From Desulforamulus aquiferis (GTDB lineage: Bacteria; Bacillota; Desulfotomaculia; Desulfotomaculales; Desulfotomaculaceae): a stretch of DNA of 36,979 nt. The notes beneath the pieces are model-generated. The model did no database searches, was not told the DNA's origin, and was given only the letters and a program-made list of their open reading frames with translations. Shown here piece after piece: positions 5,774 to 36,979 of this stretch (positions are counted from its first letter, which is position 1; the number at the start of each line of letters is the position of its first letter). The stretch covers positions 5,229 to 42,207 of the forward strand of contig AWVY01000064.1 of NCBI GenBank assembly GCA_004143605.1, given 5' to 3'. The position numbers and the translations under genes were made by a program.

Positions 5774-5819
5774 TATGCCCCAAACGCGTCCGAATGGCTG
5801 AACACGTTTTGGGGGCATA
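5774..5819 (-). terminator. Rho-independent terminator after the methyltransferase-GT4 gene
   Basis: Long hairpin 25 nt past the stop at 5844: TATGCCCC-AAACGCGT pairs with ACACGTTTTGGGGGCATA, with a U·G pair on the minus-strand RNA and a one-base bulge. Downstream sequence is AT-rich but has no clean U run. It probably ends the ABC-exporter unit. Confidence 0.6.
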
Positions 5820-5843: not shown

Positions 5844-8356
5844 TTAAAGTTTCTGATACAACTGACAAACCACTTCTGCCTGTCTTTTCCAATCTCTTTC
5901 TGATACTACCCAATCTCTACCTGCCTTTGATAATGTTCTCCGCAATTCTGGCTGTTCAAGAAGCAGTTCCAGCACTTTTGCAAAATCTCTTACATCGTCC
6001 TTCTTAAACAACATCCCGGTTTTGTTGTCTTGCACAATTGCTGCCAATGCCGCAACGTTGGATGCAACTACACACTTTTCCATGGCCATGGCTTCAAAGG
6101 GCTTTAAGGGTGAGATAAGCTCACAGACTAGGGCTCCTTTGCGGGGGAACGGTGCAATATCTATTAGGGAGTAATATTGTTCCACCTGTTCATGGGGGAC
6201 ACGACCCGTGAAAATCACCCTGTCAGCAATGGACTTTTCCCTTGCTAGCTTTTTCAATTCTTCGTAGCATCGACCGTCGCCCACTAAAAGTAAGCGAAAG
6301 TCATCCCTTTGGCTCAAAAGAATTGCAGAGGCTTCCAGCAGTAAGTCCAACCCCTCGTACTCTACCATTGAACCAACAAAGCCAATCACCGTTTTACCAG
6401 AGAGTCCCAACTGGGATTCTAATTGGATATTTCGTTCCACGGGCTTAAAGCGGGTGGTGTCTACCCCGTTTGGTACAACAGTTATCTTCTCCTCCGCTAT
6501 ACCCCTTTGGTTAACTAAATAATCCTTCAAGGATGGAGTAATGGCAATTACCGCATCGGCTTCACGGCAAGCTTCTGTCTCCAGGCGAACACACATGGCA
6601 TATTCCTCCGAATGCTCCCAATCTGGTTCCCTGGAGATTCGGGTGATCTCCCAAAGGCCTCTTACTTCGTATATGCTTGGTATTCCGAGTATTTTAGCTG
6701 CCTTGACTGCTACATTTCCTTCCACATAATTAGAGGCTGCATGAATTATTGCTGGTTGATAGACCTTGGCTAGATTTAGCACTTCCTCCAGGTACCGCTG
6801 CATATATTCATCTAAGGGAATTTGGCTGAATCCCGCATCTTCGGTTGGCATTCGCAGATACGTCACATTGCCTATAGACTCTTTTTCCACAACATCTTCA
6901 ACCGACATATTTTTAAGATCCCAGGGGAAGCCCAGGCGGGAAACACCAAGTACATTAAATCCACCGGAGCATAGGCTGGATATAATCTCTTGGGAACGAA
7001 CTGCATAGCCGCTGCTAACATAGGGAAGTGATGCGTGAAGAAGATAAAATACACACCCTTCTTTAGGAGTGTAGTTTTCCGGAGTTGAGATTTCCACCGG
7101 ATTAAAACCATGCTGCAGCAGGTTTAATTTACCCCTTTGAAAGGGACTTCTGGGATTTAACTTTTGAGTGTTCTTTTCTCCGTTTGATTGTACACTTTGT
7201 ATGCTTTTGTCAGATGTCCTTACCCTATTGGCAATGCCCTGGGTGAACAGCCTAGCTAAACGGAAAGGCAGGGCTAGTGTATTCCACCCCGGCCTGGTTA
7301 TCGCCTGGATCAAGGCCTGTCCCAAACGAAAAGAGATTGATTCCTTTACTTCCCTTAGCTTATCTCGGGTTTGATAATAGTTCTGGGCTGCCCTATTACG
7401 TGATTTCCGTTGATCGTCATTTTGCTTGTGTAGTACCTTAATTTTAGCTTGAAGGACTTCATTATCAGCCTTTAGCCATTCTAGCCGTTCTTTTTCCTGC
7501 TTAAACAGCTGATTTGGTGATTTAGCTCTCTTTCTTTAAGGGTCAATTCTAGAGCTAGCTGATTTTTTTCTGTTGTAAGCTTGTCAGCAGGACCCTTGAT
7601 ATCTTGAATTTGATTTTTGTTTTTTCTATATTCCTGGCGCAGCTTATTTTCCGCCGCTTTCCATCGTTCGATATTTTTCCACAGAAAGATTTGCTGCTCA
7701 ATTATTGCCTTGTCCGAAATAGCTAAAAGAAAGGTATCGTCAAAGCTATCCCACCCTGACCCGCCATTTTCCCTTTTTCTACCGGCAAAGCGGATATACC
7801 CATCTTCAATTGCAATCTCCACCGGGGAGATAAATGGCTTTAGTAAGGCTGAAAAGCTAGCTAGTGTGAAGGTTTGTTTGTGGTCAGTCGAAGGGAAGTA
7901 ACCAAAGGGTGTGGTTACTAAGAGTTTTCCTCCTGGCTTTAGGAAATGGCAGGCCCTTTCAAGAATTAATGCAGGGTGCAGTAAATGTTCAAGCAGTTCA
8001 CCCAGAATCACTGTGTCAAAGGAGTCACCTGCAAATTCCACTGCCATTAAATCCCCGTTGATAAAACTGGCCCTTTTGCACACTGATTCTGCCTCATTCT
8101 TAAATAGGCCTTCGGCATATTTAAGGGCCTCCTGATTTATATCAACACCTACTACTTTAAAGCCTTCCCGGGCCAACAGCAGGGCTAATATTCCTTCACT
8201 GCAGCCCACATCCAGCACTTGCTCCCCTTCGGCTTGGCCGGCTAACCAATTAATACGCCTCTTGGCCCTCTCTTGTGTATCAGTTCCGCCCCAACTACCT
8301 AGATAGGCCTGGGCTATTCTATCCCGCTCATTTATCTGATTTGTATCGCTGCTCAT
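5844..8356 (-). CDS. Fusion: SAM methyltransferase + coiled coil + GT4 glycosyltransferase, one frameshift
   Basis: About 837 residues. Residues 1-215 are a class I methyltransferase: motif I VLDVGCSEGILALLL (about 48), acidic VVGVDIN (68-74), LGELLEHLLHP (118-128) and FLKPGGKLLVTTP. Residues about 215-340 are charged helical coiled coil. Then SFRLGQALIQAITRPGW leads to a GT4 domain with HASLPYVSSGYAVRSQEI, GFVGSMVEYEGLDLLL and ELISPLKPFEAMAMEKCVV. The start ATG at 8356 has AGGGGAG upstream. The frame breaks near 7506-7511; one added base (agctg to agcctg) joins HQIS to LFKQEKERLEW inside the coiled coil. Known parallels: WbdD (methyltransferase/kinase with coiled-coil ruler) and WsaE (methyltransferase fused to glycosyltransferases). 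Inferred role: methyl-capping and adding sugar to chains exported by the neighbouring ABC system. Without the repair these would be two separate genes. Confidence 0.82.
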
Positions 8357-8378: not shown

Positions 8379-10521
8379 TTATATCTCAATTTGATTGATA
8401 TAATCCTTTGAGTAATTTACTATTTCAAAATCAGCTAATTTAGTTGCTTTACCCTTTTGTATTTGGACAAAATTATATCTATCCGCTGAATATATTTTAA
8501 AACCTTCTGAAGCACAGTCTGTGAGAAAATTTCCTTGCTGGGCCTGGTTTGACTCAGTTTTAGCTTTTAATCTGCTGAATACTTCCTTTTTTATAATACA
8601 TGCCTCGGCCAATACCAAGGGAGTATAACAGTGGTTCATATGCCGGTTGTTAAGGGCCAATGCTTGCTCATCTTCAAAATAAGTATAATAGCTGCCTTTA
8701 CCCACAATACTTGCATCAGTAAAGTCAAAGGCCATGTTTAAATCCCCAAGATAGTGTTTTCCATAAAAGCAGGCACCATCAAATACTGCTATATATTCAT
8801 ATTTAGCCACTTCTAAGGCTTTATGCATCCACTCTTGCCGGTCAATTGTTTTATCGACTTTGGTTATTGTAATACTCTCACAGGCCTGGCCAATCTTTCC
8901 CATTTTGCACCATTGAGATTGGTTTCATCCAATAGTAAAATCATTTCTTTTTCAGCATACTCCTGCCTGGAATAGCTTTCCAATAATGAATTTATACTTC
9001 TTCGGAATTGGCATAGGCGACAATGGTTATTTCCCTTTTACTTGGTTCTGAATCCTTTGTGTTTAAATCAATGTTGTCTATTATATACTTAAGCCGATTA
9101 GAGTAGGTATGGTGCTGTAGTACCATTCGCACGCCCAGATGGGCTAACCTTTCCCTTTTAGCTTCATCTTTTATTAGTTGATCCAAATGCCTTTTAGTTT
9201 CTTCCCAGGAATTACTCATTTTAACAAGGTCGGAGCCTAATATTTCATCAATACCCTTGGAATAACTGCTGACAACGCAGGTACCGGACGCCAGGATCTC
9301 AAAAACCCTTCTAGAAAACATGGTGGGACTTGCTGAAACACTATTTACATTCAAAAATACCTTGTAAATTTTATATATATAATTTATCTCCTGATACGAA
9401 GCCTCCCCTACAATGAAAGGCATATATTTTTCTGGGAAGCGTAATGTATCGTTATTTCTTGAGTAATTCCGGTCAAAGATATGCAGTTTATATTTAAAGG
9501 CAGGCTCAAGCATGTATTTCATTTGCCTCTTTCTGGCATCGTGGTTTTTTTCATACCAGGAACCGGCAAAGGCCACGTCATGCACTTTGGGTTTGCTGCC
9601 AATGGGATTGTGTATTTTAGGCTGGGCTCCAAAGGGCAAACAAAACACCCTCTCATGGCCCAGCATACCTTTATACCTTGGTACACAATCTATATCTGTA
9701 GTGAAAACATAGTCAAATAATTTTGCCGCAGTTATAAATCGTTCGAAGTGAGGTGGGTCCTCTTTATTCCAAAAAACTGTCTTGATGTTTTTATCTTTAC
9801 ACCAGTTCACCAATTCAAACAGCCGACTATCCTCTACTTTTCCCAAATCATTTAGATAACCCATCCAGGAATTATTGTTTCCCCGCCAAGCCGACTCAAC
9901 CAATAAAAAATCCGGTGTATTATTACTCAATACTTCTTTCCAGTTTTCCGGTGTAAATATTACCAGGTTAGCTTCATATTTAAAACAATCATAGCTAAAC
10001 TTATCCATTATTACACCGATAGTGATGTCTTTTCTTTTAGGCTGGAAATCCTCAGCCGCCATAATTAACGTGTTTTTAACCAGGTTGGCTTTTGGTCTAC
10101 CGTGAAAGCATGTATTGATTTTTTTGTACAGGGGTCTCAATAGGGATAAGATTATTTTTCTAAGGGGTAGTTTAGTTTCATTTTTTCTAATAAAGTAATA
10201 TGCCTTAGAAAAAAAATATTTGGAGAAAAATAGAATCTTACGGGGTGCTTTTACCGGATTTGTTAAACTCTCTAATAGGGTATCCAGCAATACATATTTC
10301 GTGGAGTTTTCTAAGTCTATAATCCTTTTTCTTGAACTTATTAACTCAATGAATTTTATCTTAAAGAATTTTCTCTGATCATAATTAAGCTTTGTAACAT
10401 TCCCAAAATCCTGTTCAAAGCTTTTCACTAGATAATCCAAATTCTCTTTTTCTTTCTTCAATTTATTGTATTTGTCTAGGTTCTGCCGATATCCTGGTCT
10501 ATTTACATCTGTGTTCTGCAC
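8379..10521 (-). CDS. Fusion glycosyltransferase: CgeB-like GT-B + C-terminal GT2-like domain, two frameshifts
   Basis: About 714 residues. A charged N-terminal helical region (MQNTDVNRPGYRQNLDKYNK...) is followed by a CgeB/DUF3880-type GT-B glycosyltransferase with KTVFWNKEDPPHFERF, HDVAFAGSWYEKNHDARK and SRRVFEILASGTCVVSS. After about residue 490 comes a GT-A/GT2-like domain: REITIVAYANSEEV, then YIAVFDGACFYGKHYL, where the Asp may be the metal-site aspartate. Two single-base losses separate the parts: near 8993-8999 and in the T run 8903-8906. Adding a base at each restores EEVINSLLESYSRQEYAEK and NGAKMGKIGQACESITI. GTG start with AGGTG upstream, 20 nt after the ABC ATPase. CgeB proteins are known from Bacillus spore-coat glycosylation; the sugars here are unknown. 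Confidence 0.8.
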
Positions 10522-10540: not shown

Positions 10541-12019
10541 CTAATTTACATTACCTTGTTTAGTATTCTCTCTATATTTAGCAACGGCCTCCCTGGGATC
10601 GCCATCAAACACTAATCGACCTTTATTTATCCAGATGGCCCTTGTACAAACCTTTTCTACAAACATCATACTATGTGTTACTACCATCACGGCTTTAGAT
10701 GCAGCTATCATTTCTTGTATTCTCTCACTTGCCTTTTCATAAAAGGCTATGTCCCCCACAGATAGAGCTTCATCAATTATAAAGATATCCGGTTCAAGGG
10801 TGGCTGCAATACTAAAACCCAATCTTGCTCGCATACCACTGGAGTACTGTTTTACAGGTCTATTAATAGACTTCTCCAATCCGGAAAAGCTAACAATATC
10901 TTCATAGACCTGCTCAATTCTCTCCTTGGTTAAGCCCAGCATCAGGCCATTTAAGTAGATATTATCTGCTCCGGATAGCTGCCCGTTAAAACCGATACCA
11001 AAACTTAAGAGGCTGCCACCTCTCCATTAACTTCAACTCTACCCTCATCCTGTTTAAGGATTTTGCTTAAAACCTTGCATAAGGTGGACTTACCCGCCCC
11101 ATTATTTCCTATAATACCAACTATTTCTCCTTTTTTTACAGTAAAAGCAATATCCTTTAAAGCCCATATTTCTTTCCCCGACAGGTTATATCTGACTCCC
11201 ACATCAGCTACATTAATAATTACTTCTTCACTTATTTTACTTTCTGTCTTCTTTAAATCGGCAATTATCTTTTTCTTCTTTTTGGGGGAAGCCTCTAACC
11301 TGTATTGATTGGCTATACTTGCCGCATCACCAAAGGCCTTTATAGTCCCGCCGTCAAGCCAGATGGCTTTAGTGCAATTCTTTTCTATGAAGTTTATATC
11401 GTGGGATACAATTATAACAATTTTGGCATTTTGTACCAGTTCTTTCATTTTATCTGCTGCAGTTGCTTTAAAACCAATATCCCTGTGCTTAAGGCTTCAT
11501 CTAGCACTAATATTTCAGGGGCCAGCATCGAGCAATACTAAACCCGAGTCTTGCCTTCATCCCGCTGGAATAGTACTTGATGGGCTGCTCAATAAAGCTA
11601 TTATCAAGTCCAGAAAACTCAACTATTTCATGATATAGCTTATCTATATCTCTTCTGGAAAACCCCAGCATCATCCCGTTTAAATAGATATTTTCTTTCC
11701 CCGAAAGTCCTTTATTAAAACCCGTGCCCAGGGAAAGCAGTGCCGATATCTCTCCACCAACCTGTATCTCTCCGGAATCAGGTCTCAATAATTTGGATAG
11801 TACTTTGCAAAGGGTGCTCTTCCCTGCACCGTTTGAGCCAATGATACCAATTATATCTCCTTTAGCTCCTTCAAAGCCTATACCTTTTAAGGCCCAAAAT
11901 TCCCCTTTGGCAGCCTTTTTATTATTTCTTCCCAGCACAAGATTATCTATTGCAGTTCTAAATTCAATCCTTTTTTTATTAAATGAATACTTTACACCTA
12001 CATCTGTCAGCCTAATCAC
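10541..12019 (-). CDS. Tandem double-NBD ABC ATPase of polysaccharide exporter (Wzt/TagH type), three frameshifts
   Basis: Powers export of lipid-linked polysaccharide with the adjacent permease. Repaired length about 493 residues with two complete nucleotide-binding domains. NBD1: Walker A GSNGAGKST (61-69), signature YYSSGMKARLGFS (149-161), Walker B ILVLDEAL, switch His in IVSHDINF. NBD2, after a KKKKK-containing linker: Walker A GNNGAGKST, signature YSSGMRARLGFS, Walker B IFIIDEAL, VVTHSMMF. No carbohydrate-binding C-terminal domain is seen. Breaks: near 11528-11533, the CCC at 11481-11483, and GG at 11011-11012. Adding one base at each restores MLAPEILVLDEALSTGDIGFK and GEVAALLSFGIGFNGQLSG. 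GTG start with GAGGTG upstream. Usual Wzt proteins have one NBD, so the fusion is unusual. Confidence 0.85.
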
Positions 12020-12048: not shown

Positions 12049-12825
12049 TTATAAAGCTTTGATAATTTTGTGTTCATTACGATTGTAGTAATAGATCATA
12101 AAACCAATCACTATAATAGATGCGGTACCTATAAGCAATAGCTTTAATAATTCGGGGTTACTGCCATGCATAAATATATTTCGATAGCTAATTAAAAAGG
12201 CCGAAGCCGGATTGATATCTATAAGCCAACTATATTTAGCCGGTATTCTGTCGGCCTCCCATATTACAGGTGAAGAATAAAACCATATCCTCATTAGGTG
12301 GCTCAGCACATTTTCTATGTCCCTTATAAACACACTAATATATCCCAGGGTCAAAGATATGGCCAATAAAAATAACTGCTGGATAAACATGATAAAAGGC
12401 AGCCACAATATCTCTACCCCTGGCATTATTTTGAAATAGACTAAAAACAAAGCAATTATTACAAGGCCAAAGGAAAAGTTTACCAATTGGGTTAGGCTGG
12501 TCCCTAATGGGAATATTATTTTGGGCAAATACACCTGGGAAATAATACCTGATTGGCCGGTAATCGCCTTGGCTGACGACATGGTCGTCGTGCTTAACCA
12601 TCTCCATGTAATCATTCCCACGACTAAATAAACCCCGTAAGCCTCTCCTCCATGGCCAAATAATACAGCCACCAGGAAATAATAAACAACCACGCCCAAC
12701 AGCGGATCGAGCAACCACCAAAAATAGCCTAAAAAACTATTTCGATGCTGGGCCTTAAGTCCCGAGGTAACTAGATAGATTAAGAGATCCCTACGTTTGA
12801 TTAACTCCTTGATATAACTATCCAT
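12049..12825 (-). CDS. ABC-2 type polysaccharide export permease (Wzm/TagG type)
   Basis: Membrane half of an ABC exporter for undecaprenyl-linked polysaccharide. About 258 residues with six predicted helices. The family opening is clear: YIKELIKRRDLLIYLV, then LKAQHRNSFLGYFWWLLDPL. It also has GYISVFIRDIENVLSH and WFYSSPVIWEADRIP, both conserved in TagG, Wzm and RfbA proteins. I take the ATG at 12825; an in-frame TTG at 12849 lies within GAGAGGAGC, which is better read as the ribosome site although spacing to ATG is long (about 14 nt). The gene is 29 nt upstream of the tandem ATPase and 56 nt downstream of wecC, one transcription unit. Confidence 0.92.
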   Translation of the reverse strand: MDSYIKELIKRRDLLIYLVTSGLKAQHRNSFLGYFWWLLDPLLGVVVYYFLVAVLFGHGGEAYGVYLVVGMITWRWLSTTTMSSAKAITGQSGIISQVYLPKIIFPLGTSLTQLVNFSFGLVIIALFLVYFKIMPGVEILWLPFIMFIQQLFLLAISLTLGYISVFIRDIENVLSHLMRIWFYSSPVIWEADRIPAKYSWLIDINPASAFLISYRNIFMHGSNPELLKLLLIGTASIIVIGFMIYYYNRNEHKIIKAL

Positions 12826-12881
12826 TAAAAGTCTTTCTGCTCCTCTCAAAAAGCAGCAATTTAATTTTATAAATTATAGTT

Positions 12882-14162
12882 CTAGGCGTAAGAGATTTGA
12901 GCTTTTTGCTCAACCCCCAAATTGTAGGGTTGTCCGTCTCCCAATAGCAGCACCTGGAATCCTGCTTCTCTCCATTCCCTGTGGTTAATGGTGTTTTTTG
13001 TATCTATAACTAATTGGTTTGCCATCAGACCTTCGCACATTTCTGGATTTAGTGTTTTGAAGGAATCATGATCCACTGTGATAACCACACAGTCGGCATT
13101 ATATAGGCACTCTTTCAAGCCGGCAGAATCCTCGACGAAAGGATCGTGGGCACTTACTATATATCCCTTCTGCCTCAATAGCTCAACAATTTCTATGGAG
13201 GGACTTTCCCTGGTATCGTCTATATTAGCCTTATAGCTTAAGCCTAATATCGCCACTTTCTTTTTAGGAATTACATTAGACTGAACCATTTCAAGAACAT
13301 ATTTAGGCATATTACGGTTGATTTGGCGTGCGGTTTTTATCAATTTGGATTGTTCCGGGGCAGATTCAATAACGAAGTAGGGATCGACTGCAATACAATG
13401 TCCGCCTACTCCAGGACCTGGTTGGTGAAGATTGACTCGGGGGTGCTTATTTGCCAAACCGATTGCTTCCCACGCATTTATTCCTATCTGGTTGCAAATC
13501 TTTGCCATTTCGTTTGCCAGGGCAATATTAACATCCCTAAATGTATTCTCCATCAGTTTAACCATCTCAGCCGTTTCAATGTCGGAAGTATATATTTCTC
13601 CCTTAACAAAGAGGCTGTACAATTCCTTGGCCTTTTCTGCCGATTTCTCATTTATTCCGCCAATGACCCGATAGTTGTTTACCAATTCCTCAATAATCTT
13701 ACCGGGAATAACTCTTTCCGGACAGTGGGCTATATATACGTCTTTGCCGGGTTTGAAGCCCTTTTTCTTCAGTGGCTCAAGTACCACTTCTTTGGTAGCA
13801 CCAGGGTAGACCGTTGATTCTAAAATTATTAGATTGCCCTTTCGCAGATATGGCTTAATAGCCTTCATGGCATTGTGACAATAACTAAGGTCGGCTTTAT
13901 GATCACTGGTGCAAGGAGTGGGTACGGCAATAATAAATACATCCGCTTCAATGGGCCTTATGCCTACGGTCAGCATACCTTGACCTATAACCTTTTTGAT
14001 CAGTTCATCTAGCCCAGGTTCTACATAAGGGTTTTCACCCTTTGAAACCTTATTTATTAATTCCTCGTTTATATCAACACCATGTACATATGCCCCAGCC
14101 TCTGCAAATGCCCCAGCGGTAGGTAAGCCAATGTAGCCCAATCCAACTACACAAATTTTCAC
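12882..14162 (-). CDS. wecC: UDP-N-acetyl-D-mannosamine dehydrogenase
   Basis: Oxidises UDP-ManNAc to UDP-ManNAcA using NAD. 426 residues, normal length. NAD site VVGLGYIGLPTAGAFAEAG at the start, IAVPTPC, HCPERVIPGK, NTFRDVNIALANE, catalytic-cysteine loop GPGVGGHCIAVDPYFV, and C-terminal domain LSYKANIDDTRESPS. HCPERVIPGK and GHCIAVDPYF are typical of WecC/Cap5O/MnaB enzymes. GTG start, with AAGGGG about 12 nt upstream. No UDP-GlcNAc 2-epimerase (wecB/mnaA) is present in this window, so the substrate must be made from elsewhere, or specificity differs. First gene of the ABC-exporter unit, preceded by a 490-bp non-coding gap. Confidence 0.9.
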   Translation of the reverse strand: MKICVVGLGYIGLPTAGAFAEAGAYVHGVDINEELINKVSKGENPYVEPGLDELIKKVIGQGMLTVGIRPIEADVFIIAVPTPCTSDHKADLSYCHNAMKAIKPYLRKGNLIILESTVYPGATKEVVLEPLKKKGFKPGKDVYIAHCPERVIPGKIIEELVNNYRVIGGINEKSAEKAKELYSLFVKGEIYTSDIETAEMVKLMENTFRDVNIALANEMAKICNQIGINAWEAIGLANKHPRVNLHQPGPGVGGHCIAVDPYFVIESAPEQSKLIKTARQINRNMPKYVLEMVQSNVIPKKKVAILGLSYKANIDDTRESPSIEIVELLRQKGYIVSAHDPFVEDSAGLKECLYNADCVVITVDHDSFKTLNPEMCEGLMANQLVIDTKNTINHREWREAGFQVLLLGDGQPYNLGVEQKAQISYA

Positions 14163-14653: not shown

Positions 14654-16023
14654 TTACCCCAATGAATCAATAAAATTTAGCAGTTCTTTCGTTTTCTCCT
14701 CCATTAAGTCCTTGTTCCCCATAGCTTCCACGTTTAACCTAATAACAGGTTCCGTGTTAGAGCTGCGTAAATTAAACCTCCAATCTTTAAATTCCATGCT
14801 TAAGCCATCAATATAGTTTATATTAACGGTTTCTGATATGTAATTACCTTTTATACTTTTAATAACGTAATTAGCATCATTGACCTTTCTATTAATCTCA
14901 CCACTTGCGGGATATGCCTTCATTCGATCTTCAACTAATTTCGATAAACTTTTACCCTTCTGACACATTTGTTCTAGCACTAAAAGCCAGGGTATCATTC
15001 CGCTATCGCAATAGGCGAATTCACGAAAATAATGATGGGCTGACATTTCACCACCATACACGGCATTTTCCGCCCTCATTCTTTCTTTTATAAATGCATG
15101 TCCTGTTTTACTCTCTATTGGGAAGCCCCCTGCTTTTTCTACTATCTCCTTCGTGTTCCAGGTTAAACGAGGATCATGAATAATCTTACCTCCAGGATTC
15201 TTTGCTAGGATCGATTTGGCTAATAGCCCAACTATATAGTATCCCTCAATAAACTGCCCCTTTTCATCAAAAAAGAAACACCTATCAAAGTCACCATCCC
15301 AGGCTATTCCGAGATCTGCCCCGGTCTGGCGTACTACACTGGCCGTAGCTTCTCTATTTTCAAGTATTAACGGATTTGGGATTCCCTTTGGAAAATTTCC
15401 ATCCGGAAGATGCTGTATTTTAATTAATTGAAATGGTAATCTATCCTCTATGGCATCTATAACCGGACCAGCACAGCCATTTCCTGCATTGACTACTACT
15501 TTGAGGGGCTTTAGATTGTCAATATTTATATAAGATAGTATATGTTCAGCATATTCTAACATGATATCTCTTTTAGTGTAGGTCCCCATAGACCCTTTAT
15601 AAGTTACCTGAAATCCTTCAATAACTAGTTTTTCAAGCTCCCTTAAGCCACTATCTCCACTAATTGGTTTTGCCCCTGCTGTTACTAATTTCATGCCATT
15701 ATAATCCATGGGGTTGTGACTTGCCGTAACCATTATCCCACCATCCAGTCCCAAATGAAAGGTGGCAAAATATATCTGTTCAGTTCCACATTGTCCTATA
15801 TCAACTACATTACAACCACTGTCTCTTAGTCCACGGACTAGTGCAGAGGTTAGAGGTATACTAGTAAGACGTACATCGTACCCTACTCCCACCAGTTAGG
15901 TCTAAACAATTCCACATAGCTTATGCCAATAGAGTACGCCATTTCTTCGTTTAGTTCCTCTGGAACTCTTCCTCTGATATCATATGCTTTAAAGACATTT
16001 CTCCACTTATCCTTTAACACCAT
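14654..16023 (-). CDS. manB: Phosphomannomutase/phosphoglucomutase, one frameshift
   Basis: Interconverts mannose-6-phosphate and mannose-1-phosphate (often glucose phosphates too), feeding ManC for GDP-mannose. Alpha-D-phosphohexomutase family: N-terminal [20 protein letters not shown], catalytic phosphoserine loop [18 protein letters not shown], metal loop [16 protein letters not shown], sugar loop [20 protein letters not shown] and phosphate-binding [15 protein letters not shown]. Repaired length 456 residues, typical for ManB. ATG at 16023 has AAGGAGAGG 7 nt upstream. The frame breaks at about 15891-15894; adding one G turns RPNWWE-stop into [15 protein letters not shown]. Without repair the first 43 codons, including the YDIRG motif, would be lost. 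It lies 14 nt after a mannosyltransferase-like gene. Confidence 0.9.
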
Positions 16024-18354: not shown

Positions 18355-19872
18355 TTATCCCTCATGACTTGATCTATATTTTTTCATTATTTGGTTTACC
18401 TTTGGTTGAAAAGCTTCTAATAAAGATCCTGCACTTTTTCTTAATAACGGCACTGCTGCAATGTAAATTACCCAAAAAAATAAGAAAATTAAAGTAGATA
18501 AGGCTAAACCTAACCACCCTTGTCCAAGTAAAAACACACCAACGGGAGCATATAAAATTACACCAATACTTAACCAAAATAACTGTGGCAATGTGACCTC
18601 CGTAATTTTCAAGGCTTTTATAGTTAATAAAAACAGAATAATTCCATATACACTTGTACCAACTCCTAATGCAAGAGGTCCCAGTGTTTGATATAAAAGT
18701 ATATTTGTTAATGCATTAGCACCTAATGCAATACCCATATATTTTACAACTTCCCTATTCCTAAGCTGAGCATTCATAATCTTAATTAACACATATGACG
18801 ATACCTGTGCCCAGAAACCCAAGCCAAGTCCCAAGAGAACGGTTTGAGTCAAATTTACAGATTCTCTATTAAAATTACCCCTCTCGTATAACAAATGAAC
18901 CAGAGTTTCGCTATGAATAGCTAAAAATGCTGAAACAGGTACTGTTATAAGAAGGATTACAGTAATTACCTGTTGAATGCGCTTGTTTTGTTCTTTATCG
19001 CTAATGTTACTAAAAATCGAAAGTCCCGCAAGACCCAGTGGTACTGCAAGTAGATTAATCCCTGTTTCAGTAACAAACTTAGCATAATCCAATGCAGCAA
19101 CTACGCTTACACCCATTAAGGATGCAATGATTCTTTCTACTGCTATATTGCCTTGAAGCATAAAGGGAAGTAGTAGTAATGAACGGATTGTTTGCCAAAA
19201 GGACTTGAGTACTTCAAAGGTTTCCGGCCATATCCAATTAGAAGGCCATGTTAATAGTCCCAGTTTAGTAAGTCGTAAATACCCCAATATAAAAAATGTA
19301 ATATATGCCCCAGTAAACCCCCAAGCTAAATAAACTGGTTGTTTAAACCAGAATGCAGCTATGGTACCTGCTATAAGCCCAATACTTTGAATACTTGGCC
19401 GTATGGAAGTCAAAGTATAGCCATCATTACCCATTTCTAAATATGATAAGAGGGAACCTATGATGTAGAATGGCACACTTAAACTCATAACTTCAACAAA
19501 AGAGGCCGTCACATCCAAGATATGACTGTCAAAGCCCGGGGCCATAACTTTAACCCATATGGACGCCCCAAAGTAGAGAAAAAGCATTATCATAATAGAT
19601 ATTAGAAAAATTAATGACTTAAGGACCCAAAATAGTGTCTGAGCCTTGGCTGGTTCCGAATTAAGATACCGCTTGTATAGAGGAATAAACCCAGCATTTA
19701 GACTTTCAGCGGTAAAAAAATTAATTGGTACTAATGTGGCAGTTTGGGCAATTCGATAAGCACCCACTGGAGCAGTCGTACCGAATAAAGCTGCCAACAG
19801 TAATTCACGTAGAACGCCTAGGATCTTTCCCAATAATCCACCGCTAAATATCGTAAGAAAAGCCTTAAACAC
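18355..19872 (-). CDS. MurJ/MVIN-family lipid-linked oligosaccharide flippase
   Basis: Integral membrane protein of 505 residues with about 14 hydrophobic segments and no frame break. The N-terminus FSGGLLGKILGVLRELLLAALFGTTAPVGAYRIA is the MVIN/MurJ signature, and ESLNAGFIPLYKRY follows as in that family. Known family role: flipping lipid II or lipid-linked glycans across the membrane. Here, between glycosyltransferases and with two polymerase-like genes in the same unit, it most likely acts as the Wzx-type flippase for the repeat unit rather than for peptidoglycan; this is inference from context. GTG start at 19872 with AGGAGG 11 nt upstream. The downstream glycosyltransferase begins 5 nt after its stop, counting from the chosen ATG. 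Confidence 0.88.
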   Translation of the reverse strand: MFKAFLTIFSGGLLGKILGVLRELLLAALFGTTAPVGAYRIAQTATLVPINFFTAESLNAGFIPLYKRYLNSEPAKAQTLFWVLKSLIFLISIMIMLFLYFGASIWVKVMAPGFDSHILDVTASFVEVMSLSVPFYIIGSLLSYLEMGNDGYTLTSIRPSIQSIGLIAGTIAAFWFKQPVYLAWGFTGAYITFFILGYLRLTKLGLLTWPSNWIWPETFEVLKSFWQTIRSLLLLPFMLQGNIAVERIIASLMGVSVVAALDYAKFVTETGINLLAVPLGLAGLSIFSNISDKEQNKRIQQVITVILLITVPVSAFLAIHSETLVHLLYERGNFNRESVNLTQTVLLGLGLGFWAQVSSYVLIKIMNAQLRNREVVKYMGIALGANALTNILLYQTLGPLALGVGTSVYGIILFLLTIKALKITEVTLPQLFWLSIGVILYAPVGVFLLGQGWLGLALSTLIFLFFWVIYIAAVPLLRKSAGSLLEAFQPKVNQIMKKYRSSHEG

Positions 19873-28075: not shown

Positions 28076-30593
28076 TTATTTTATATAGGGAAGCAATATT
28101 ATCTCATCTATTTTTTCTAGATTGTTTGAGTTTTTGACTCTAGCCTTTTCACGCCAGATTTTATAATTAGATTCGTCTCCTAATTTATAATAAGCTGCCG
28201 CATTCAAATTTGTTGACTCCTCTACTAGATTTATATCTTTAATGACAGTCTTATTTAACTCAATTGTTTCTTCGTAATTGCCAACTAGATAATATGCTTT
28301 AGCTACATGAAGAAGCGCCTGCAGACTTATGTCAAAGTGTCTTTCTGCTCCTCCTTTAACTTGTTTAGTTTCTAAAATCCCCTTAATTTCCTGAATTTTG
28401 TTGTAGTATTTTATAACATCTTCAAGTTCTGTTCGTACAGACGTCTGTAATCCATTTTTAATCTTTTCTTCCGCTATTTGATAACCCATAATAATTCTTT
28501 GATTATAGATATCTGAATTATATGGTGCAATCGACATTGCACTTTCTAATTCTCTCTTTGCTCTATCCATATCCCCCTTTTTGTAGTTAAGTTCAGATAG
28601 TTTGACCTTTACCAAGGTTGAATATGGTAACCTGGAAGCAAGGTTCTCTAATATAGTTTCTGCTTCCTCTTGTTGAGCCTTCCTTATGTTTTGGTCCTTT
28701 TGGATGCTAGCAATTGAATATAGGTACTCAGCATAATATACAGACATATCCGTATTTAGCGGATCATTGTTATGAGCTTTTTGCAAATAATTTAACGCAG
28801 ACATATAATTGCCTTGCATTATCAAGTTTTCTGCTTTTCTTGCATTGCTTATAGCGGCCACAGGTAATGCATTAAGAACGAATACTAAAACACAACCTAA
28901 TTTTAATAAAAAAGGCTTCTCTTTCCCAAAAAGATATCTTTATTTAGCAAAGATATTAGTTTATTGTTCTTTCCTCTTTCTATCAAAGAATTAGCGTTAT
29001 TATTGCTTTGATTCTCATAAGATAACCAGTTTTTACTAAATATGCAAGCAAACAACACCCATACTATCATGGCATAAGATGACAGTGACATGTTAAAATC
29101 GATAAAGCTGTGGCTCATCAACATTAGGCATCCTACTATTGCTGCAATTATGATATATTGGTTTCTATTATTTTTATACCTCATGTATAAGCAAGTAGAG
29201 ATTAATAAAAAGGAAATTAATATCAATGCTAAAGCAATCAATCCTAATGTCCCTGCCTCTATTGCCAATTGTAAGTAATAAGTATGTGCCTGCCTTGACC
29301 AATAGGAATAACTTTGATATGTTTCAAAAAGTGCCTGCCAAGCTCCTCCACCAGCACCTAAAATTGGGAAATTCTTATATATCTTTATGGAATCATTATA
29401 GAATACTATACGAGATGCAGCGCTACTATTATCTTGAATATTATTAAAAGCCTCTAGTCGATTAATTATGTTTTCCAAAGAACCGATATCTTGGGACACT
29501 TTATCTGAAATAATATTTATTCCAATAAATATTATTAAGATACCAACTACTATGGTCGCAATTTGTAGTACCCGATATTTTTTTAAATCCTTTTTGAAGT
29601 GTAAAATAATCATAGTGTAAATAAATGCTGCTATTGCTGCTATTGCTGCAGCGACCAGCATAGTTGCCCAACCACCATTCGGTATAATGGTATTTTGTTG
29701 CAGTATATTTGCTTGGTATGAAGCCACCATAATTTCATTAGCCTTCATAAGTACATATACAGAAGGAGTTGCAGCAATAGCTGAAAATGTTAAAAAGATT
29801 ATCTTATCTCTTAATGGTACTAAAATAAATGTAATAATATAGATTAGTAAAAATACAAGCAAAGCCCCACGGGAATGGGCTAATAAAAATACAGATATTA
29901 AAATTGTAGTTATTCCTAAGTACAAAGCGGCGTATACACTACATAATGTATTTTTTCTCTATTATTTTCATCGTAATAAGCCTTACTGCCAATACTAGAG
30001 CGACCAATATTGTAGCGCCTAAGAAAGATGCTAGAGTATTATGGTATTGGAATACTGATGATATCATTGGGGTACTTTCCCAACTAACAGCATCTTTGTA
30101 TTCCCAGCTACCCATAGCAACTCCATATCCGAATAGGGATACCCATAGTCCTAAAATAATTATTGAGTTTAAAACAATTTATTTGATGTTTGTTGCTTTT
30201 GATAGTTATAATTAAAATATAGTATATCAATACATAATTAATATTTCTAAATATCTCATCCCGGGCCATACCAGGATCCACTGAGCCGATAAAGGATAGC
30301 ATAAACGCTATTGGTAAGCCAAACATAATAATATCTATTGTTCGGTTTGGTAAATTTATATTTTTACTAAAAAATTGTTTAACTAACAAAACTATAAATA
30401 ACCCTGCAGTGATAAGGTGAAATATATAGTAGTTCTCTCTGAAGAATAGTCCTCTAAAATAAGGAGCTATCATAATCATCATTAGACATGCTGCAAAGAT
30501 TACATTTTCTACTGTTAATATTTGGTTCTCATATAAATTGTCTTTTTCTTGTACATGCTGATTCTTTGCTTTCTTTTTATTTGGTTGTACCAA
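28076..30593 (-). CDS. O-antigen ligase/polymerase with C-terminal TPR region, four frameshift sites
   Basis: About 840 residues repaired: a membrane part with 10-12 helices (to about residue 560), then soluble TPR repeats (ALNYLQKAHNNDPLNTDMSVYYAEYL; LHVAKAYYLVGNYEETIELNK). The ligase hallmark is FPILGAGGGAWQALFETYQSY followed by QAHTYYLQLAIEAGTLGL. Sites: two losses between about 30175 and 30200 (adding A and T gives TIKKQQTSNKLFLNSIII), a six-T run 29951-29956 short by two (gives EKKNTLCSVYAALYLG), and TTT 28922-28924 (one A gives GKEKPFLLKLGCVLVF). TTG start at 30593 with AGGGGCG upstream. First gene of the large polysaccharide unit. Role: polymerise repeat units or ligate glycan to a surface acceptor. 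Confidence 0.82.
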
Positions 30594-30882: not shown

Positions 30883-31928
30883 TTAATTTTTTAATGTTAA
30901 CAATGTCACAGTATGCCTGGAAGCAATGTCTAATTGTGTATTTTTAAGTTTCTTTACATTTGATTCAACTGTTAACATATTGTCTTTAGTCACTAGACCT
31001 AGGTCTGAATGTAGCTTTAATACTCTTAGATTTTCTTCCAACTGCTCAATCTGTTTCTCTATTTGTTGATAATTAGCTTCTAATGTCTTTACTCCATTGC
31101 AAAGAGTAACAGTTGAAACACTTATCTCTTCTTTTGTACTTTCTACAGTGTTATTCGCTTTGGCCTGATTATTGTTACCAATGTCTGAATAAAATTCAAA
31201 GTACTTAGTTACGCAGCTGTTCTTGCAGCCTCAGTAGCACTCCAAATTTCAAAGGAATTATTAATGGCCTTTGTCACTTGCATATCTACATCGAATTCTT
31301 CTGGGTAAAATCCTATCTCTTCCTCTAATTTAGGTCGAGCACTAATATTTTGCCCTGTAATTTTATTTAATTCACCATAGGCAGTGTCTAGTTTTCCTTC
31401 AGCATCTTTTATGTTAGCTCTGGCACTCACTACTTGGGCATCTGCTGCTAATAAGTCTGCCATCGTAGCCATCCCTACATCGTATTTTGCCTTAACCTGA
31501 TCCCTTTTAATAATATTCAGTGTCAAATTTGCTTTCATTTCATCTAAGAGTTGATTGTTTTTTATAACCTGATGATATGCCTCTGTAACATTAATAGAAA
31601 GCTGCATTTTATCAGCATTCAATTTTTTTTGTGCTTGTCTAAGCTGGTGCTGAACCCCATAGTAGGATTTAAATACATTTGTATCATCCTGATTATAATT
31701 ATAGTCTATTGGTGTATACTTTACTAATTCCTGAAGGCTATCACGCTGTATTTCTGTGCTATCTATATCTAATTGTGCATTCAAAATAGATTTATTGTGA
31801 GACAATGCTTTTTTAATTGCATTATCTAGGGTTAAGGTCTGGTCCGTTGCTTCATTTGCAAAAGCAGGAACTGCAATAATTAATAGGGCCAGCAACAGGA
31901 GCAATGTTTTTGTAATTTTCTTTAACAT
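30883..31928 (-). CDS. TolC-family (outer membrane efflux protein-like) secreted protein, one frameshift
   Basis: About 348 residues: signal peptide (KKITKTLLLLLALLIIAVPAFA, cut near AFA-NE), then the long antiparallel helices of TolC proteins. The family pattern is clear: LDNAIKKALSHNKSILNAQLD, AYHQVIKNNQLLDEM, KYDVGMATMADLLAADAQVV and AYGELNKITGQ. The second half is AKANNTVESTKEEISVST...LEANYQQIEKQIEQLEENL. The break is near 31209-31213: one added G turns the early stop into TAVTKYFEFYSD, adding about 109 residues that end at 30883. ATG with GGAGG 7 nt upstream. Shorter than Gram-negative TolC (about 430-470). Its job in a cell presumably lacking an outer membrane is unclear; it may be a wall-spanning conduit or structural helical protein. 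Confidence 0.82.

Positions 31929-36151: not shown

Positions 36152-36979
<828 letters not shown>

Follow-up and report, generated by a model that had tools for sequence, protein, structure and literature searches.

A split gene joining a methyltransferase, a coil-like stretch and a GT4 glycosyltransferase beside an ABC exporter in Desulforamulus aquiferis: a candidate chain-capping ruler

The window analysed here, 36,979 nucleotides of a Desulforamulus aquiferis contig (AWVY01000064.1), carries on its minus strand, at 5844-8356, a stretch that by ORF reading and Pfam joins a class I SAM methyltransferase, ~148 helical residues and a GT4 glycosyltransferase, spread over two frames. The methyltransferase and the first coil part lie in one of these (the MT frame, 7481..8356; 291 aa, ATG at 8356, stop at 7481), and the second coil part and the GT4 domain in the other (the GT frame, 5844..7535; 563 aa between its opening at 7535 and its stop at 5844); the 55 bases common to both, 7481..7535, are the frame-break zone. 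Searched separately, as unrepaired frames, the pieces matched Methyltransf_31 (7.9e-20, MT frame) and Glycos_transf_1 (7.8e-32, GT frame). The methyltransferase domain (7742..8278, minus strand; Methyltransf_31/11/23) has UbiG as its top NCBIfam match, far under the cut-off of that model, and among its top sequence matches are the O-methyltransferases MitM and UbiG. A kinase domain is absent, given that no kinase Pfam match was obtained and that the coil stretch begins at residue 206, straight after the methyltransferase. At the other end lies one GT4 domain only (5844..7055, minus strand), in which Glycos_transf_1 and Glyco_transf_4 domains form a GT-B fold according to Pfam, AlphaFold and Foldseek. 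Its top solved match in Foldseek is MshA, followed by sucrose-phosphate synthase, GlgM and BshA, and since the MshA-, GlgM- and BshA-type families are retaining enzymes, the sugar that the domain adds is more likely alpha-linked. The best NCBIfam match of the GT4 domain, the PEP-CTERM/XrtA glycosyltransferase model TIGR04063, reached 332.9 bits against a curated cut-off of 442.05, and assignment to the XrtA family was rejected.

A sequence-only reading of this DNA had taken the two frames for a single gene of ~837 residues after one base repair, and the evidence bears this out: the 2513 bases with one frame change give a protein of that length. The GT frame holds ~70 coil residues ahead of its first ATG, GTG or TTG, a TTG at 7325 that lies inside an SFRLG motif, so that a separate GT gene starting there would lose those residues together with part of a conserved motif. 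Intact single-ORF proteins with the same domain order occur in two metagenome-assembled genomes (MAGs; L075 and L048), with no break in either. Two separate genes are consequently unlikely and were rejected. As to the cause of the break, other genes of the same assembly are broken likewise, namely both mreB paralogs, the Wzt gene, a GT-B/GT2 gene, the LytR-CpsA-Psr gene and, further along the contig and in three pieces, wecB; sequencing error is therefore the simplest reading and likelier than decay. A real pseudogene, two proteins or ribosomal frameshifting, any of which would mean that the cell works with something other than the fused form, is very unlikely. The assembly does show a broken frame, L140 encodes a methyltransferase-coil protein by itself, and an A-rich run inside the overlap 7481-7535 might serve a programmed shift, but the breaks in the other genes are alike, L075 and L048 are intact, and the assembly is 72% complete at 3.57 Mb, a size that matches eight other members of the genus that are 94-100% complete at 2.7-4.0 Mb. 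Just 3' of the gene the minus strand has no listed terminator, and an imperfect inverted repeat can be seen by eye at ~5775-5819. The mreB paralogs are broken by frame changes (36152-36979 and G000:C61:25543-26519), a sign of widespread indel errors.

The stretch between the two enzymes (7296..7741, minus strand) is helical, charged and coiled-coil-like over ~148 residues. By a composition rule, a long proline-free charged stretch comprises MT-frame residues 206-291 and GT-frame residues 8-81, and the length covers everything between MT-frame residue 206 and GT-frame residue 80, where the modelled helix ends. Where a charged coiled coil of ~125 residues had been proposed, the charged and helical character stands, but the length is ~148 and heptad periodicity is weak in the window stretches (z 0.5 to 1.5); the predicted coiled coil owes its label to composition, model and homologues. 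AlphaFold, applied to the GT frame alone with a 29-row alignment, gave an unbroken helix at residues 7-80, a second helix at 88-106 and a confident GT-B domain (pLDDT mostly >90, model mean 88.1). The proposed order of methyltransferase, coil and GT4 domain is thus upheld by Pfam, by composition and by the model of the GT frame. The SFRLG motif and the next helix (GT-frame residues 68-106, 7218..7334, minus strand), where two helices are modelled, form a candidate membrane or partner contact on the grounds of composition, AlphaFold and recurrence of the motif as SYRLG in L075, the common form at the coil end being SxRLG; as a gauge of a possible amphipathic, membrane-associated helix near the GT end, the best 18-mer moment is 0.43 in the window and 0.58 in L075. 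A linker with mostly low model confidence follows (GT-frame residues 107-130, 7146..7217, minus strand). A 148-residue helix would span ~22 nm. Across relatives the coil-like stretch measures 72 aa in L048, 217 in L081, 235 in L075 and 260 in L046, a range that is expected of a ruler but equally of a drifting spacer.

The fusion gene lies downstream of wecC, wzm and wzt, which supports its proposed position, and its neighbours up to 15892 are on the minus strand. Adjoining it is a broken gene for a GT-B (PF13524) and GT2-like protein (8379..10521), whose pieces 8992-10521 and 8379-8903 both match one ORF in L138 (Cytobacillus) and therefore represent a single gene; they likewise correspond to one ORF in L081. 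Next comes a broken Wzt gene (10541..12019), which Pfam and homologues show to be of tandem-NBD type, with two ABC ATPase domains in one chain, and whose ORF 11005-11448 runs, with no change of frame, out of the first ATPase domain and into the second. A cap-reading carbohydrate-binding module (CBM) gave no Pfam match either in the window pieces of Wzt or in the intact 523-aa homologue from L145. The Wzm-type ABC permease (12049..12849, Pfam) is 72% identical to that of L145, and the WecC-like UDP-sugar dehydrogenase (12882..14162) resembles UDP-ManNAc dehydrogenases but scores 423.5 bits with NF008286, under the curated cut-off of 459. A phosphomannomutase/phosphoglucomutase (14654..15892; Pfam, NCBIfam) is possibly the head of the unit. 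Elsewhere in the window, a MurJ-like flippase (18355-19872) and a Wzy_C ORF (28903-29925) suggest a second polysaccharide pathway, of Wzx/Wzy type.

Neither Omp85 nor LpxC was found in the genome, an absence that is weaker than usual because the assembly is broken, and a LytR-CpsA-Psr gene is present. The Gram-positive setting that had been supposed agrees with these findings, which make a polymer attached to the wall likelier than an O antigen; an outer-membrane O antigen is accordingly not favoured. Given the WecC-like dehydrogenase in the window and the WecC-like neighbours of the better GT loci described below, the pathway likely involves a ManNAcA-type sugar, and the teichuronic acid of Micrococcus luteus was considered as a product type because of its ManNAcA (PMC3005890). 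An outer membrane efflux protein (OEP) Pfam match of 2.1e-12 at 31209-31928 speaks for an outer membrane.

The Wzt domain junction was found at E<=1e-25 in two of 150 relatives, the genome itself and G075, and the tandem junction had no match in the plasmid collection. In G075, of the same order, locus L145 encodes the 72% identical Wzm, then the intact tandem-NBD Wzt (L145:8151-9722), then a 467-aa protein (L145:9725-11128) with an FkbM methyltransferase (PF05050, 9.1e-19) and, by eye, a charged coil-like tail, and after it a protein of 1226 aa that opens with a coil and has GT2 and GT4-like domains. The FkbM methyltransferase is unrelated in family to that of the window, and an unrelated methyltransferase-coil beside the same exporter suggests that such a protein is what the pathway of this exporter needs. 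The FkbM methyltransferase at L145:9725-11128 also bears a SRIWRYMTPVRK motif.

The sequence-only reading had called for a search for the architecture in other Firmicute ABC-export loci. Among 398 phylum genomes no near-home orthologue was found, and a stand-alone methyltransferase-coil protein was (L140/L142); the intact fusions (L075, L048) came from a wider scan. None of these, the genome itself apart, gave a GT match at E<=1e-50; the best among 99 other relatives was 3.7e-35, methyltransferase matches at 1e-20 occurred in 5 of the 398 (own genome included), and in three relative loci with GT matches that were inspected this methyltransferase was not in the same ORF. This wider scan of contigs gave at least 594 stretches in at least 313 relatives, of which the best 80 were kept as 79 loci and ORFs taken from 64. 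Among these best loci, a window-related methyltransferase shares the ORF of the GT in 2 of 64 cases, L075 (Burkholderiaceae MAG, 1153 aa, methyltransferase 33% and GT4 41% identical) and L048 (bacterial MAG, 1078 aa, 32% and 48%). The L075 model, from a 21-row alignment, begins with the methyltransferase and helices at 216-283 and 292-482 and ends in a GT-B fold; between these come two short helices, then disorder, then a helical repeat. Confidence in its coil is low (blocks mostly 53-74). A GT tree puts L048 next to the window, with support of 95/66, which is not firm, and places L075 in another part; firm branches force two changes to account for these two fusions, from which the methyltransferase-GT4 fusion is read as having arisen, or been lost, more than once. 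Of the 22 loci with the lowest scores, L103-L125, all except L105 and L119 join L090, L100 and L110 in the same tree on a separate branch that we infer to be XrtA-type.

Related modules are joined in other ways as well. One 1187-aa ORF in L081 (Qipengyuania) holds the methyltransferase (44%), a 217-residue coil-like stretch and GT-B/GT2 homologues, and one on a Leisingera plasmid (L046, 1428 aa, cut) holds a methyltransferase, a coil-like stretch and a GT-B module, with genes annotated as ABC permease and ATPase about 25 kb off; in eleven other loci among the best, the GT4-type ORF also holds a homologue of 8992-10521. Joined in such varied combinations, the methyltransferase-coil, GT4 and GT-B/GT2 modules are assigned to one pathway. 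In L140/L142 (same phylum) the methyltransferase-coil stands alone (348 aa), accompanied at its locus by wecB, wecC, wzm and a 244-aa wzt, and the order wecC-wzm-wzt-GT recurs without the methyltransferase in L076 (Alkalihalobacillus). In L138/L151, L139 and L141 the methyltransferase protein is short (233-263 aa), and no Wzm/KpsM-like permease was found near it in these loci. Large single ORFs with the GT4 module and the 8992-10521 homologue were seen in L089, L071, L083, L091, L095, L096, L101 and others; several of this L089 group contain further GT-like sequence, and the L089-type ORFs have the look of a one-chain multi-GT synthase family, with wecB/wecC adjoining in many loci.

Gene neighbourhoods among the 79 best loci bear on how general the association is. 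Of the 54 loci in which the GT scores at least 225 bits, 30 have a WecC-like neighbour of at least 300 bits, against 1 of the 25 lower-scoring loci (Fisher p 4.7e-6, which ignores relatedness), or 24/37 against 1/17 where at least 15 kb of flank is present. For Wzm/KpsM-like permeases, with a threshold of 50 bits, the figures are 16/54 against 1/25. These 300-, 225- and 50-bit thresholds were picked post hoc from the data, and several contigs are short. With a permease in only 16 of the 54 better GT loci, the link of this GT4 family to ABC export is not general.

Several characterised systems provide the frame in which the window may be understood. ORF6 of Klebsiella pneumoniae O7, a methyltransferase-kinase-CBM-coil-GT-GT protein of demonstrated kinase and methyltransferase activity, resembles the window in joining an N-terminal methyltransferase, a coil and a C-terminal GT in one chain at a wzm/wzt locus (PMC11231755). 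It differs in the kinase and Ig-like CBM between methyltransferase and coil, where no extra domain was found in the window fusion, in having two GT modules, called GT2 in the Discussion of that report, rather than one GT4, and in serving a Gram-negative O antigen (PMC11231755). WbdD of E. coli O9a/O8 likewise has a methyltransferase and a coil, its membrane-proximal end recruiting the polymerase, and the O8 form is described as a simple methyltransferase terminator; unlike in the window, the polymerase is a separate protein, the O9a form has a kinase, and the exporter reads the cap through a Wzt CBM (PMC3482155), none being found in the window Wzt. The methyltransferase matches WbdD weakly (2.6e-4). 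WsaE of Geobacillus stearothermophilus is Gram-positive, serves an ABC-exported glycan and joins a methyltransferase and glycosyltransferases in one chain, but with two GT domains and, in the part of the account drawn on here, no coil mentioned, against one GT4 and a coil-like stretch in the window (PMC2943079). WbbB of Klebsiella O12 polymerises, measures and terminates in a single protein, its terminator being a Kdo transferase and not a methyltransferase (PMC11231755). Finally, E. coli group 3 capsule clusters encode putative methyltransferases with variable-length coils at ABC-exported capsule loci, with no GT fusion mentioned in the part of the account drawn on here, unlike the window (PMC13171606).

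The analogy with WbdD and WsaE that the sequence-only reading had drawn is thus supported, and the match to WbdD is incomplete, since neither a Wzt CBM nor a kinase was found; the window is a candidate system of the WbdD type, with the defining cap-reading Wzt module not found. The remark that no characterised protein has exactly this order nearly holds, with Klebsiella O7 ORF6 and O12 WbbB coming close (PMC11231755), and WsaE already provides a Gram-positive protein that combines capping with extension (PMC2943079).

A chain-capping ruler role is plausible by analogy, and we regard it as modestly probable that the fusion is a polymerase-terminator for an ABC-exported cell-surface glycan that probably contains an N-acetylmannosaminuronic-acid-type sugar. 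In such a protein, the helices on the GT side of the coil would keep the complex at the membrane, the GT4 domain would add an alpha-linked sugar and the neighbouring GT-B/GT2 protein its partner sugar. Once the chain had grown as far as the other end of the coil, the methyltransferase there would O-methylate its non-reducing end; this would stop chain growth, and the coil would thereby set the minimum length. Placement of the methyltransferase at one end of ~148 helical residues and of the GT4 domain at the other, in a single gene, speaks for the role, as do the intact relatives L075 and L048, the methyltransferase-coil proteins at the L145 and L140/L142 exporter loci, the WecC-like neighbours and the precedents of Klebsiella O7 ORF6, O12 WbbB and WbdD. 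Against it stand the Wzt without CBM, the missing kinase, the weak heptad signal, the low-confidence L075 coil, the methylation by WsaE irrespective of chain length in vitro (PMC2943079), the failure to find a permease near the methyltransferase in L138/L151, L139 and L141, and the proportions of better GT loci with a permease (16/54) and of GT ORFs, among the best loci, with a methyltransferase (2/64). In light of the CBM-less Wzt, the cap-gated export of WbdD systems is not to be assumed here.

Two other functions deserve consideration. The methyltransferase might decorate internal sugars or each repeat, with the coil a scaffold near the polymerase and neither ruler nor termination involved. 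Methylation by WsaE was independent of chain length in vitro (PMC2943079), Wzt has no CBM to read a cap, and methyltransferase homologues without a long coil occur (L138, L139, L141). However, the coil sets a wide distance between methyltransferase and GT, methyltransferases of unrelated families are found joined to a coil beside the same exporter, and published accounts of characterised ABC systems treat their coil proteins as terminators (PMC11231755); internal decoration is on these grounds rather unlikely. Alternatively, the coil protein might mainly assemble the GT complex at the membrane, with methylation falling on an adaptor or linkage region near the lipid. A coil and a similar end motif precede GTs that lack a methyltransferase (L089 and the second proteins of L145 and L048, by eye), and the authors of the Klebsiella O7 work call their coil protein a membrane scaffold too (PMC11231755), but such a function, which we hold quite unlikely, leaves the far-end methyltransferase of the window, L075, L048, L081 and L140 unexplained.

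Beyond the ruler role itself, a more specific proposal is possible, if tentative: that an apparent monoderm combines extension, length measurement and methyl capping in one polypeptide with a tandem-NBD, CBM-less exporter, that length control here is not gated by recognition of a cap by Wzt, and that unrelated methyltransferase-coil terminators (Methyltransf_31-like and FkbM) have been swapped beside this exporter, the ruler logic being kept and not the enzyme. Single-protein polymerase-terminators and a Gram-positive methyltransferase-GT fusion are already characterised; what is new is a kinase-less, GT4-fused version in an apparent monoderm with a tandem-NBD exporter, and no report of a kinase-less methyltransferase-coil-GT4 protein was found in the literature searched, which covered few subscription journals. 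Control of length by a coil ruler has been worked out for Gram-negative O antigens, and a version without Omp85/LpxC, kinase or cap-reading module would show whether a ruler works without export gating. More broadly, the reshuffled methyltransferase-coil, GT4, GT-B and GT2 modules of bacteria, with GT4 also in archaeal MAGs, offer a set of coil lengths to be compared with chain lengths.

Two further occurrences of the GT4 module may be added. The E. coli plasmid pCE1537-B (L044) carries a kps capsule cluster with wecB and wecC and a TPR-like + GT4 protein that is 39.5% identical to the window GT frame over 98% of the frame; the alignment takes in the coil region, though by eye no coil of this sort is present in the plasmid protein. 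In Poseidoniales and Euryarchaeota MAG contigs (L064, L065, L066 and L056) the same GT4 module is present at 41-46% identity.
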